64,000 nucleotides of DNA from Psychrobacter sp. PG1. Lineage in GTDB: Bacteria; Pseudomonadota; Gammaproteobacteria; Pseudomonadales; Moraxellaceae. The first letter of the stretch is position 1. Each line of letters starts with the position of its first letter. This document shows, one piece after another, positions 59,621 through 64,000 of the stretch. The stretch covers positions 53,006-117,005 of the forward strand of contig NZ_JABUZG010000057.1 of NCBI RefSeq assembly GCF_014897815.1, read 5' to 3'. The translations under genes were made by a program, and so were the position numbers. The notes under the pieces were generated by a model, which saw only the letters and a program-made list of their open reading frames with translations, ran no database searches and was not told where the DNA came from.

Positions 59621-59744
59621 GGGTGAGATACGCAAATTGGTTGGCGGTTGATACGCTATTATAAAGGGTATGCATGCTGACGCGCAGCCATTATTGAATA
59701 TTATATTGGATGCTATTATAAACTTTTTTGGTAAGGAGCATAAA

Positions 59745-60026
59745 ATGCACATCGCTATTTTGACACTGACGTTTTCATTGCCCGGATGCGGCTCATTAAA
59801 AGAAAAGCGCCAACGTATGGGCGGCTTGCACGCACGCTTTGGTGATACACCAAGCGTCGCGGTCTGTGAGAGTGGCGAGCGAGATCGGCATGACGCTAGC
59901 GAGTGGACGTTTGTGATGGTTGGGCTGTCTAAACGTGAAGTCGAGTCGCAGTGTAGCCAAATTGAGGAGAAGATAGAGAGTACGGTAGATGCACGGGTAA
60001 TGAATGTTGAGAGGGAGTTTGTTTAA
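59745..60026 (+). CDS. DUF503 (YlxP-like) family protein
   Basis: A 93-residue small cytoplasmic protein with a ferredoxin-like fold. Family start MHIAILTLTFSLPGCGSLKE then KRQRMGGLHARFG, and FVMVGLSKREVESQ. The ATG is six bases after a perfect AAGGAG. Function unknown; Firmicute homologues lie beside rbfA/infB. Divergent from the exporter genes. Confidence 0.82.
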   Translation: MHIAILTLTFSLPGCGSLKEKRQRMGGLHARFGDTPSVAVCESGERDRHDASEWTFVMVGLSKREVESQCSQIEEKIESTVDARVMNVEREFV

Positions 60027-60158
60027 TTAGAGCGCTTTTATTACTGGGAGCCAATCCCGCTTTTCGCTCATATCTGGTCGGCCACTAGAGCGGTGACTAA
60101 TAGCCAGTAGCGTTCCTGTTGTCTCGATATTGCTCCTAGCTAAGTTACCGCAATCTAG
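60027..60158 (-). pseudogene. Possible C-terminal gene remnant
   Basis: On the minus strand a 43-codon frame without a usable start ends at TAA 60027-60029, abutting the DUF503 stop on the other strand. Its last residues (SGRPDMSEKRDWLPVIKAL) look protein-like. Only an internal ATG (14 codons) is available. GC is visibly higher here than in the following AT-rich gene. It could be a fragment of a lost gene or a mobile-element scar, or chance. Confidence 0.25.
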
Positions 60159-60260
60159 TGGTTAACCAAGGATAACCGCTACAATTTGGGGGTAAAATAC
60201 GTCTCAAGGTGACTAGGGTATAGACATGATGCAGGGAGCTGATGATCAAGGCTGAATCAA

Positions 60261-62423
60261 TTACAAACAACACTTCTTATATTTTTTTCCACTACCGCAA
60301 GAGCACTTTTCGTTTCTCCCTGTTTTTTTAGGCATAATTTTCGTTTTAGGATTGAAAGTTGATAGAGGTTTTGCCATGTGGGAAGTGGCTCGCTCCATTT
60401 CTTGCGAATACTCCCAAGGGAAGTCGAGCTTCATACCAAATCTAATATTTTTAGTATCAGGGTCAATACAGATAGCATGCCATTTTTTAGACTTTGTATA
60501 ATATTTTCTTCTTCTAGCGTGATCTTCTAATTTTTCTTTAGCAATATTATAGTCATTGTAGTTGCAGTGAATTGTTAATCCTTCACCATTGCCATGTTCA
60601 AATCCAATTGTAAAATCATGATTTTTACCATCTACTAAGCTTTTACTGCAAATTAATTCAATAACTTCATTGATCTGTTGAATTGATTGTTCATTGATTG
60701 TTAGTAGTAAGAATCCAAAGTCTACTGTACTTGGATTATTCATTCTTTCAACATCAGAAAGATATTTTCCAACTATAGTGCCCTGATGTTTTGTAAGTAT
60801 TCCTTTTGGATTCTGTATAGAGTTCAGACCATCTCTTCTAGTTAGCATTGACATATCTAATTCAGCATTAAAATCGTCTCCTATATGCATGTAATCTATA
60901 CCGTCAACCCATAAATTATGTATCAGATGGTATGCAAGAATGGTCATTTCATGCGTAGCCATAACGCTGTCTGTATAGTTTGTTCTTCTGTTCAGATAAC
61001 TCAGAAAATATAAGGGCGTATGGAGCATTTCAGCAAAAACATCTAGAAAGAAAACATCCATAATAAAAGGAGCTTTAATGATGTCAGTTTTTCTAGATTT
61101 TAAGAATTGCTTAGCTTGAAAAAATAAAGCAGGGTAGTGGTCTGATACAATACATACTGGATATACTTCTTGAAATTCGATATTTGAAATATCTATGCTC
61201 TGACCATCTTTATCTTCAAGCTTATAGTTTTTACTTACTAAAAGTTCAGAGCATAAATAGGCTTGGTCATACGCATCTTGAACAGCTTTCTTAAAGTCGT
61301 TTTTTATAGCTGAGTCATTACCTTTTCTAGATTCTAGAGTAAGTTTCTTAGATTTAGCTTGCAGTACAATAGCTCTGTTTGCAAATAACACTAAAACATC
61401 TATTTCTCCAGCAATTACGCCTTTTTTTTCAAGAATATTGACACCTTGAAAAACTCTATTATTCCCAAAAACACTTTTTAACCTACTTACGGAAAAATCT
61501 TCCGTAAAGTTGCCTCGGTTCGTCATTGCAGTACTACGGTAAGACTTATCATCCCAGAACCAAAAGAAGGGAGACTCATATAATGCTTCTAATAAACTAT
61601 AATTTTGAAAAAGAAGATATCCACTCTCATCTAGCTTTATTATTGGGAAAGCATTTTTTGGGTTGAAATCATCAAGCCTTTTGAATTCATAATTATCAAT
61701 CGATACAAAAGACTCAATTACCTTTTTTATTAAAGGTTTAGATAAGGGTGTGGATAGCTCGGTTTCTATCTCATCTATTGTGAAAGTATATGCTTCTAAA
61801 ACTGTCCATTCGTCAGGATTTTTTTGCAAAACCTTAGATAATATACTGTTAACCTTTTTAAGTTGTAAAGAGCTAATAGATTTAATAACAATGAATAATT
61901 CATCTAGTGAATAGCCTTTATTTCTTATTATCCAATCTTCATCATTTTTGTATTTTAACTTCGATAAATCTCTGTATTGGAAGTGATAGGCTGACTCGCC
62001 TCCATAAAATATAGGTTCTCTTAAGAAAGTACCTTTATTAAGGGGGTTATAGCTTTTATCTGGTTGTTTATCAGCGTCTAATTTAAACATATCTGAAACA
62101 TCAGGCATCATTGAATGATGGAGTTCTAAAAGCAAAGCTTCTGTTTTCTCTATGTACTCCTGCATTTTAGCAGGAGTTGGTAATTCTACGTTTGACTTAA
62201 TTGTACATGCAAGACCAATTAGTGTAGATATTTCAATGCGTAATAGTCTATCCATACCATACTGTTCTAAAAAGTCCTCCTTCTGTATTTCCTCGCCAGA
62301 TCGTACAGTATTATCTCTAAAACAAAAGTATGCAATAGTATGTAAATATCCATCAGACTGGCACAATGATTCCAGATCGTTAAAAACCTCTGCTTCTATT
62401 CTCTTTCCTTCTTTACTAAACAT
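60261..62423 (-). CDS. SEC-C motif protein with PD-(D/E)XK-like nuclease domain
   Basis: A 720-residue soluble protein of unknown function. Residues about 300-410 resemble a NERD/Mrr-type PD-(D/E)XK nuclease: E309 in GNFTEDF, D342 in GEIDVLVLF and Q355-x-K357 in IVLQAKSKK. The last 19 residues are a SEC-C zinc motif with C707, C709, C718, C719. The N-terminal 300 and the 410-690 region have no recognised domain. The gene is strikingly AT-rich with many AAA/ATA/TTA codons, unlike uvrA and DUF503 on either side, suggesting horizontal gain. Defence or DNA/RNA surveillance is an inference. Confidence 0.72.
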   Translation of the reverse strand: MFSKEGKRIEAEVFNDLESLCQSDGYLHTIAYFCFRDNTVRSGEEIQKEDFLEQYGMDRLLRIEISTLIGLACTIKSNVELPTPAKMQEYIEKTEALLLELHHSMMPDVSDMFKLDADKQPDKSYNPLNKGTFLREPIFYGGESAYHFQYRDLSKLKYKNDEDWIIRNKGYSLDELFIVIKSISSLQLKKVNSILSKVLQKNPDEWTVLEAYTFTIDEIETELSTPLSKPLIKKVIESFVSIDNYEFKRLDDFNPKNAFPIIKLDESGYLLFQNYSLLEALYESPFFWFWDDKSYRSTAMTNRGNFTEDFSVSRLKSVFGNNRVFQGVNILEKKGVIAGEIDVLVLFANRAIVLQAKSKKLTLESRKGNDSAIKNDFKKAVQDAYDQAYLCSELLVSKNYKLEDKDGQSIDISNIEFQEVYPVCIVSDHYPALFFQAKQFLKSRKTDIIKAPFIMDVFFLDVFAEMLHTPLYFLSYLNRRTNYTDSVMATHEMTILAYHLIHNLWVDGIDYMHIGDDFNAELDMSMLTRRDGLNSIQNPKGILTKHQGTIVGKYLSDVERMNNPSTVDFGFLLLTINEQSIQQINEVIELICSKSLVDGKNHDFTIGFEHGNGEGLTIHCNYNDYNIAKEKLEDHARRRKYYTKSKKWHAICIDPDTKNIRFGMKLDFPWEYSQEMERATSHMAKPLSTFNPKTKIMPKKTGRNEKCSCGSGKKYKKCCL

Positions 62424-62520
62424 TGCTATTCCTTACATTTATCGATTATTGCAAAGCTAACATAGTAGATTACTTCACCGCTACTACTTTTTGTCTAGAA
62501 TTCTAAGTACTTTCTTCTAA

Positions 62521-62553
62521 CCAAAAAAAAGCCACCCTATAAAGAGTGGCCTT
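62521..62553 (-). terminator. Rho-independent terminator of uvrA
   Basis: On the minus strand GCCAC and GTGGC (62546-62550 and 62531-62535) bracket a loop with partial extra pairing, followed by eight T. It lies 23 bp after the uvrA stop. Confidence 0.85.
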
Positions 62554-62573
62554 TTATCAATCATTCACTTGTA

Positions 62574-64000
62574 TTAGCTGACTTCTTTCATGCCTTGCTC
62601 TAGCATCGGCTTTAAGAATATACCCGTGTATGACTCTTTGACTTCGGCCACTTGTTCAGGCGTACCTTCTGCGATGATCATACCGCCACCTTTACCGCCT
62701 TCAGGGCCCAAATCAATTACCCAATCTGCGGTTTTGATGACATCTAAGTTATGTTCGATGACGACGATGGTATTACCTTTATCACGTAGGGTATGTAGGA
62801 TATTGAGCAGCTTATCGATATCATGGAAATGCAAACCAGTGGTTGGCTCATCCAAGATATAGAGCGTCTGTCCGGTATCACGTTTGGCAAGCTCACGAGC
62901 CAGTTTAACACGCTGCGCCTCACCGCCTGATAACGTTGGCGCAGATTGACCCAAACGAATATAACTTAGGCCAACATCCATCAATGCTTGCAGACGACGA
63001 TAAATCGCTGGAATGGCTGAGAAGAATTCAGTGGCATCTTCTACAGTCATATCTAGGACATCGGCAATATTTTTACCTTTATAGTGAATCTCTAAGGTCT
63101 CGCGGTTATAGCGCTTACCTTCACAGGTATCACACGGCACATACATATCAGGTAAGAAATGCATCTCAACTTTGATAAGGCCATCACCTTGGCACATCTC
63201 ACAGCGTCCGCCTTTTACGTTGAAGCTAAAGCGACCCGGCTTATAACCACGAGCACGCGCTTCTTGTGTCTGGGCAAACATCTCACGCACAGGGGTAAAC
63301 ACACCGGTATAAGTCGCTGGGTTTGAGCGCGGAGTACGACCAATCGGGCTTTGATCGATATCGACCATTTTGTCCAAATGCTCAAGACCACTGATGCTGT
63401 CATGCTTATCCGCGATGAGCGTCGAGGCATTATTCAACTGAGTCGCTGCCAATGGCATTAAGGTACGGTTAATCAGGGTAGATTTACCAGAGCCAGAAAC
63501 GCCCGTAATACAAGTCATAATACCGATTGGTATCGTCAAATCAACATCGTGTAAGTTATTGCCGGATGCACCTTTGAGCTCAATCGTCATCGGAACTTTT
63601 TGAGCTTTGGCCTTACCTGTGATTTCAACATCCATCGTCTTGGCTTTATGACGAATGCTTGGAATCTCGATTCTCTTCTTACCAGACATATATTGTCCAG
63701 TCAGCGATTCTTTGTTTGCCATGATGTCATCGACCGTACCTTGAGCGATAATATGACCGCCATGTACACCTGCACCGATACCGATATCGATGACGTGATC
63801 TGCTTGGCGAATGGCATCTTCATCATGTTCAACGACCAGCACAGTATTCCCTAAATCACGCAAGCGCGTTAGGGTTTTTAGCAGACGATCATTATCGCGC
63901 TGATGTAGACCAATCGATGGCTCATCAAGCACATACATCACGCCCATTAGTCCTGCGCCAATTTGGCTGGCAAGGCGAATACGCTGCGCTTCACCGCCTG
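62574..64000 (-). CDS. uvrA: Excinuclease ABC subunit A, C-terminal part (cut by window end)
   Basis: Damage-recognition ATPase of nucleotide excision repair. The window holds the last 475 or so codons; the frame runs open through 64000, so the start lies outside. Visible: the first-ABC Walker B/signature end ([14 protein letters not shown]), second Walker [17 protein letters not shown], zinc-finger Cys pairs [10 protein letters not shown] and [13 protein letters not shown] signature [17 protein letters not shown] and Walker [17 protein letters not shown]. The upstream residues from 64000 ([13 protein letters not shown]-type) match the first ABC signature. Confidence 0.97.

Follow-up and report, generated by a model that had tools for sequence, protein, structure and literature searches.

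What does an unusually AT-rich reading frame between uvrA and the DUF503 gene of Psychrobacter sp. PG1 encode, and how did it come to lie there? We analysed a stretch of 64,000 nucleotides, hereafter the window, which forms part of one contig of the 3.49 Mb host genome. On the minus strand, between the 3' end of uvrA and DUF503, an open reading frame of 720 codons extends from position 62423 to 60261. The GC content, followed in 500-base windows, was 0.32-0.33 inside the gene and approx. 0.45-0.49 alongside it. A preliminary description of this DNA had pointed to codons far richer in AT than those of uvrA and DUF503, and the GC content at third codon positions (GC3) bore this out, being 0.26 in the gene and 0.37-0.53 in seven neighbouring genes. 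The features of the locus were assigned as follows, with the evidence for each in brackets.

60261-62423, minus strand: the gene, 720 amino acids with the stop codon included (open reading frame list; homologues that match it over most or the whole of its extent)
61554-62423, minus strand: residues 1-290, mainly helical N-terminal region (AlphaFold2 secondary structure; within the stretch aligned with Upx, model residues 9-570)
61146-61547, minus strand: residues 293-426, predicted PD-(D/E)XK (NERD-like) nuclease core (Pfam NERD below its cut-off, AlphaFold2 model, fold matches)
61353-61502, minus strand: predicted catalytic residues E308 (61500-61502), D342 (61398-61400), Q355 (61359-61361) and K357 (61353-61355) (invariant in 30 of 30 alignment rows)
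60354-61136, minus strand: residues 430-690, central and C-terminal region (AlphaFold2; without a convincing fold match)
60267-60317, minus strand: residues 703-719, SEC-C zinc motif (Pfam, E 3.7e-6; in 24 of 30 aligned homologues)
60216-62520, no strand: variable cassette, approximate extent (where flank matches to genomes of the genus end and resume)
62526-62555, minus strand: terminator-like hairpin after uvrA, at the upstream cassette edge (terminator scan; within the flank common to other genomes)
62574-63998, minus strand: 3' part of uvrA, conserved flank (matched at the DNA level in all 105 genomes of the genus, in G080 weakly)
59670-60026, plus strand: DUF503 gene, far flank (domain match, interval survey)

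Two parts of the protein resembled Pfam families. SEC-C (PF02810) was found at residues 703-719 with 27.1 bits against a cut-off of 20.4, and NERD (PF08378) at residues 304-402 with 21.4 bits (E 3.8e-4). The latter is just under the Pfam cut-off of 22.1, so the putative nuclease core fits the description NERD-like only. Among the relatives the NERD score was above the cut-off in two (L045 and L022) and at the cut-off in one (L057). NCBIfam matches at E up to 1 were almost all to SEC-C-tailed models and far under their cut-offs. PADLOC gave five matches to the window protein, four to SEC-C tails and one to a weak PD-(D/E)XK fragment, and no PADLOC model matched it along its length. In an alignment of 30 homologues that are 25-87% identical to the window protein, all 30 have E308, D342, Q355 and K357, and 29 have E340. 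A regular expression accepted the SEC-C tail in 21 of the 30, and three of the nine rejected tails were variant motifs when judged by eye, giving 24, which is also the number of homologues that matched SEC-C-tailed PADLOC models (E up to 10). Judged from this alignment the tail appears to be a frequent, dispensable part among family members.

The AlphaFold2 model, made with 11 sequences, had a mean pLDDT of 79.2 and a pTM of 0.82. At residues 293-426 it predicted the order helix-strand-strand-strand-helix-strand (helices 293-319 and 370-397; strands 324-331, 337-347, 350-357 and 419-426), with block pLDDT values of 77-95 across residues 291-430. The predicted core thus combines the PD-(D/E)XK order of elements with conserved acidic residues and a (D/E/Q)xK motif. 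Residues from approx. 545 to 690 were predicted well on their own, as helices followed by strand-strand-helix-strand-strand; residues 430-544 stayed under pLDDT 50 in the model of the C-terminal fragment, and fold searches with that fragment gave nothing useful (best Z 5.3). The QxK-type nuclease core of the preliminary description agrees with this fold, with D342, Q355 and K357 in 30 of 30 homologues and with the NERD score just below its cut-off. The structure prediction that it had proposed for residues 290-420 places a nuclease fold at 293-426, and its C-terminal SEC-C motif was recovered by Pfam. In its list of residues the first acidic one must be corrected from E309 to E308, and the N-terminal 300 residues or so, which it called unknown, are so only in part, as this stretch aligns structurally with Upx.

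In Foldseek searches of the PDB, Upx (9wuf) was the only match below 0.001 (E 6e-5, TMq 0.31). It was also the top match of VIA-align, with Z 12.0, an rmsd of 4.5 and 11% identity over 393 of the 720 residues (model 9-570), a range that takes in the N-terminus, the nuclease and part of the downstream region. After Upx, VIA-align matched BspD6I (Z 10.8, 165-169 residues) and Can2 (Z 9.3), and further Card1 and McrC, all centred on the nuclease core. A search of a viral fold library with the model gave no match below 0.001. Upx is said to have been presented by Gao et al. in 2020 as a single-gene PD-(D/E)XK system. The parts of the Upx literature accessible to us list it among antiphage systems and hold no account of its structure or mechanism.

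The protein could accordingly be a divergent Upx, a short SEC-C-tailed branch of that family that works as Upx does. This reading would refine our preferred explanation more than oppose it, and we regard it as a serious possibility, though not as the probable case. In its favour are the single significant Foldseek match and the top VIA-align match, with both N-terminus and nuclease inside the aligned range. On the other hand, Upx has 1212 residues against 720, and a profile of the 30 homologues, run against PDB sequences at E up to 10, did not pick up a Upx chain; its PDB matches below 0.01 were to the SEC-C tails of SecA, YchJ and similar proteins. The 30 homologues matched 18 PADLOC families, none of them named Upx, though PADLOC may contain no Upx model. 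Furthermore, the Z of 12.0 is only slightly above the 10.8 reached by nuclease-core matches and may in a helix-rich protein partly mirror a common helix arrangement, as helical proteins can reach such values. In our best reading the predicted fold is Upx-like, and family membership beyond structural likeness stays a candidate assignment. Most likely the gene encodes a one-protein PD-(D/E)XK nuclease that, as modelled, is nearest in fold to Upx.

Other known proteins are similar over shorter stretches. Shedu (SduA, DUF4263) is likewise a single-gene PD-(D/E)XK defence protein, but none of the models that matched the window protein at E up to 1 was for SduA or DUF4263; a Shedu model matched one of 64 neighbours of homologues. 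Can2 and Card1, CRISPR ancillary nucleases whose cyclic-oligoadenylate sensor domain is called CARF, share the nuclease-core fold (Z 7.5-9.3 over 116-135 residues), and weak PADLOC CARF-PDDEXK matches fell at the core, but CARF was not found in the window protein by Pfam. SecA, YchJ and YecA have the C-terminal SEC-C motif in common with it, but the sequence matches to SecA and YchJ were limited to the C-terminal stretch that holds the motif. The core also resembles the model of the NERD proteins (PF08378), with a score just under the cut-off. However, the NERD nucleases of Mokosh type I, Nhi-like, PglW and DndF are, in the available portions of the sources, parts of multi-domain or multi-gene systems, whereas the window protein is encoded by a lone gene and has a SEC-C tail. 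The accessible text of PMC12458937, PMC10952713, PMC12839542, PMC10853773 and PMC10865869 presents NERD nucleases as parts of larger systems, as fusions or as neighbours, and SEC-C was not found in that of PMC12839542, PMC10853773, PMC10865869 and PMC8628076. A literature search for the NERD/SEC-C combination with defence terms retrieved no description, although an earlier listing, for example in supplementary tables, is possible.

The site was followed through the genus with a uvrA DNA query. Stretches downstream of uvrA covered 103 genomes, with G062 and G080 left out; the far flank (DUF503 or ThrE) was reached in 79 of them, and in the other 24 the contig ended or neither gene lay within the stretch. 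The length of the 79 intervals ranged from approx. 0.6 to 8.7 kb, and their cargo amounted to 239 open reading frames of at least 90 amino acids in 87 clusters, two intervals being empty. The gene occupied three of them and was absent from 76. Flank matches to other genomes stopped at approx. 62510-62530 and, in the best-matching genomes, resumed at approx. 60215; the cassette of the window therefore measures approx. 2.3 kb and contains the gene with approx. 100 bases upstream and 45 downstream, and nothing else. The gene was accompanied by a transposase, a dehydrogenase and others in the interval of G030 and by a LysE-type gene in that of G001, while the copy of G025 lies elsewhere, adjoining a valyl-tRNA synthetase gene. 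No clear insertion signature was detected in a repeat search around the cassette. Terminator-like sites in the region numbered three against a mean of 1.5 in shuffled sequences, and promoter-like sites were about as frequent as expected by chance (11, with 9.6 in shuffled sequences).

Genus-wide, the site (window 60027-62573; loci L174-L273) is variable, with restriction, Abi and HEPN cargo. The other intervals held GmrSD restriction, AbiTii, AbiH and AIPR abortive-infection and HEPN genes together with transposases and metabolic genes, and PADLOC names among the cargo included AbiU, HEC-06, PD-T4-9 and SspE. It is possible that the interval between uvrA and DUF503/ThrE is a defence hotspot throughout the genus. 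The PADLOC tallies do not set it apart from random genome, which weighs against a defence reading: 51 families were matched by 86 cargo representatives (the 87 clusters minus the gene's own) and 98 by 80 control open reading frames. We rejected this count as a test of enrichment, since PADLOC models also pick up generic helicases and other common enzymes and the counts fail to discriminate. The tally of defence genes near homologues that the preliminary description had called for could be made, with 116 PADLOC families from 64 hand-picked neighbours at 12 loci (SduA, AbiEi and GajB among the 25 listed), and the same scan served no better as a test. In Pfam, GmrSD_N, HEPN_RiboL-PSP, AIPR, AbiTii, AbiH, PDDEXK_4 and PRTase-CE were among the top 25 of 75 cargo families and none of them was among the top 25 of 110 in the control; since it rests on these top 25, the Pfam tally is a description and not a test.

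How far does the family itself extend? Ten of the 105 Psychrobacter genomes were matched. The family proper was present in five: the window genome, G030 (87%), G001 (86%), G025 (60%) and G059 (60%, in two contig-end pieces). A sixth, G085, carries a distant relative with a different N-terminus, and four were matched by the SEC-C end alone, of which G058 (L010) proved in a profile search to have a more distant relative over 256-718. Presence in only 5 of 105 genomes together with aberrant codon use supports the accessory status claimed earlier. The G085 relative (L045:9177-11546) has 789 amino acids, of which the nuclease and SEC-C are common to both proteins and the first 300 residues are without a match, suggesting an exchangeable N-terminal region.

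At a threshold of 1e-20 the gene was matched in 3 of 369 genomes of the class sample and in 5 of 398 of the phylum sample, the window genome being counted in both. Among plasmids there were 35 matching records, in 29 of which the match covered at least 80% of the protein; Agrobacterium accounted for 19 of the 35, and 24 were typed conjugative or mobilisable. The plasmid copies span Pseudomonadota, Bacteroidota and Cyanobacteriota, the cyanobacterial copy being interrupted (a shortened frame, then a transposase gene), and four haloarchaeal plasmids encode partial relatives over 33-39% of the protein. On one of these (L058:7386-8906) a shorter protein matches near the nuclease part, with DEAD/DEAH helicase and MBL-fold hydrolase genes downstream. 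A protein search of phage records found no homologue, and a scan of genome contigs gave one relative only (P. aestuarii). One alignment scan of viral contigs was discarded, as the 80 best of its 177 loci were matched by the SEC-C end and none was used. Decayed copies (L019, L023, L024, L029/L050, L038 and L059) have split frames, are shortened ahead of a transposase gene or are partial; their carriers are plasmids, a genome and a viral contig. The member at L017:11968-14145 and those of some plasmid records are annotated 'prepilin peptidase', which looks like a naming error.

In a tree of the family 14 of 28 inner branches were well supported. The Psychrobacter copies belonged to one supported group of seven, together with those of Pontibacter, a viral contig and one further gammaproteobacterium. 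The two E. coli forms were placed in separate clades, and the tree conflicts with taxonomy. We compared the synonymous divergence (dS) of the gene with that of its flanks. Between the window copy and the other uvrA-site copies the dS of the gene was 0.47 (G030) and 0.41 (G001), whereas that of the flanking uvrA, DUF503, ThrE1 and ThrE2 was 0.88-1.22 against G030 and from 1.28 to saturation against G001. The GC3 of the gene was constant at 0.22-0.26, even where the flanks in P. aestuarii had 0.63-0.68. The simplest reading of these sequences is that the gene moved between species after their divergence, although a differing mutation bias in the AT-rich gene could account for a share of the dS gap. 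A dN/dS of 0.13-0.17 among the three closest copies shows that the gene is under purifying selection.

The most informative loci were found outside the genus. Two E. coli strains, GD33 and A20, have no annotated gene other than the homologue between psu and an integrase located at ssrA, and the adjoining 7 kb of GD33 is 97.1% identical over 99% to phage P4. This P4 form is rare: of 5426 E. coli genomes, 2 contain at least 80% of the query. The stretch from psu through the gene to the integrase was matched in some part in 2285 of the 5426, of which only GD33 and A20 matched at least 80%; in the next four strains among the matches listed, 49% of the stretch was matched in two pieces (psu, integrase, ssrA and a hypothetical protein), which we read, from the matches, as probably the same flanks with other cargo. 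On the viral contig L037 the homologue is the sole non-overlapping open reading frame of at least 100 amino acids between the replication gene gpA (Pfam 1e-128) and the packaging/capsid block. Of the 302 phage records that matched this block, 85 did so over at least 80%; terminase, scaffold, capsid and portal genes were annotated there, and 19 of the 302 bore the name Peduovirus, the genus of P2. From P2 gene order we infer that the neighbour on this side would be the portal gene gpQ.

The psu-int interval of P4 and the gpA-gpQ interval of P2 are described in the available text of PMC9122126 as reservoirs of anti-phage systems, and its main text, as far as accessible, mentions neither SEC-C nor NERD. 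Another homologue (L033) lies near a P22-type portal gene on a contig that resembles Pseudomonas phages; for L039 and L036 the surroundings gave only short matches to phage records, covering 8% and 2% of the query. Copies on plasmids and integrative elements were often, not always, near integrases or defence genes. Individual loci were rich in the latter, with type I restriction and an integrase, with BREX brxL/pglZ (beside a partial copy) or with AbiEii, and an abortive-infection gene lay approx. 7 kb from one broken copy. Elsewhere the setting was of another kind: one copy lies among transport/efflux genes, one beside valS in a relative, and one on a Bacteroidota plasmid between glycoside hydrolases and a DUF4209/PDDEXK gene pair. 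In E. coli EcPF16 (L057:12914-17774) an element whose integrase lies beside guaA carries a family member and, after it, a second, distantly related SEC-C protein, which is annotated as YecA family and has a nuclease-like core; PIN-domain and HigA-like genes are situated immediately upstream. A short (3%) match of this kind was obtained for seven E. coli records.

Taken together, the likely explanation is a mobile cassette whose one gene provides anti-phage defence through a single protein. The location in the P4 and P2 hotspots is the strongest evidence for a defence role; the gene stands alone there in known antiviral sites of phages and satellites, and therefore is probably a one-protein immune system. 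The defence-related reading of the preliminary description is thus strengthened, because homologues stand alone in these hotspots, and its defence-like context stands; that the system is undescribed holds less well, as the protein is not wholly unlike known systems, namely Upx. Against a defence role one can hold that the P4 form is so rare in E. coli, that several copies are broken and that some lie outside defence surroundings (transport/efflux, valS, glycoside hydrolases).

The same gene could serve mobile elements as a competition or maintenance nuclease, directed at rival plasmids or phages of the same type and not at lytic phages, the chromosomal copies being by-products. The 24 conjugative or mobilisable records among 35 would fit this, though 19 of the 35 are from Agrobacterium, as would the carriage by satellites and viral contigs; but at uvrA the window cassette holds the gene alone, without a mobility gene, and the uvrA-site copies are under purifying selection, so we regard it as unlikely. 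A role as the toxin of a toxin-antitoxin or other growth-control module would suit a nuclease of this size, and toxin-antitoxin genes do lie near some copies; we nevertheless find it very improbable, since no constant partner gene was seen across the loci examined and the gene is sole cargo in the P4 and P2 hotspots. A functional tie to uvrA, as an accessory of DNA repair, is suggested by the neighbourhood in three Psychrobacter genomes and is largely contradicted: the gene is lacking from 76 of 79 intervals, the plasmid, E. coli, P2-like and G025 loci are not beside uvrA, and where both were compared in one set of genomes uvrA has diverged more than the gene. We hold this last reading to be barely credible.

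How would a one-protein defence nuclease work? A defence function as such we hold to be highly probable, and we are surest of the predicted nuclease activity being the effector. The helical N-terminal and central regions, with the SEC-C tail where present, would hold the nuclease inactive and sense a signal of infection. Once triggered, the core would cut nucleic acid, and either the phage genome would be destroyed or the infected cell stopped; we give preference to neither direct restriction nor abortive infection. DNA is the moderately probable target, since enzymes that act on DNA are numerous among the fold neighbours (restriction and nicking nucleases, McrC, Can2), and RNA is possible. 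The conserved catalytic residues reveal neither substrate nor trigger. No gene for a methyltransferase, antitoxin, helicase or ATPase accompanies it at the window, P4 and P2 sites, and for this reason self and non-self would be told apart by the protein itself; the lack of a methyltransferase and of any constant partner beside a lone reading frame whose nuclease centre is conserved suggests that the protein carries its own trigger. A variant, which we consider quite doubtful, separates the protein from Upx as an immune nuclease family of its own, in which the SEC-C zinc tail is the sensor that releases the nuclease. The tail, a motif known from the tails of SecA and YecA, would then respond, for example, to what a phage alters at ribosomes or in the machinery of protein export; members without it would sense via other parts.

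As a one-protein defence nuclease the gene is a compact candidate for an unlisted immune gene, with one open reading frame and four defined residues, and among its natural versions is one that forms the sole cargo of a P4 satellite backbone and lends itself to assays in standard E. coli. Should the protein be a true relative of Upx, it would show which parts of the 1212-residue Upx are dispensable. For Psychrobacter, the interval between uvrA and DUF503 looks like a chromosomal swap site of such genes and thus like a source of more candidates.
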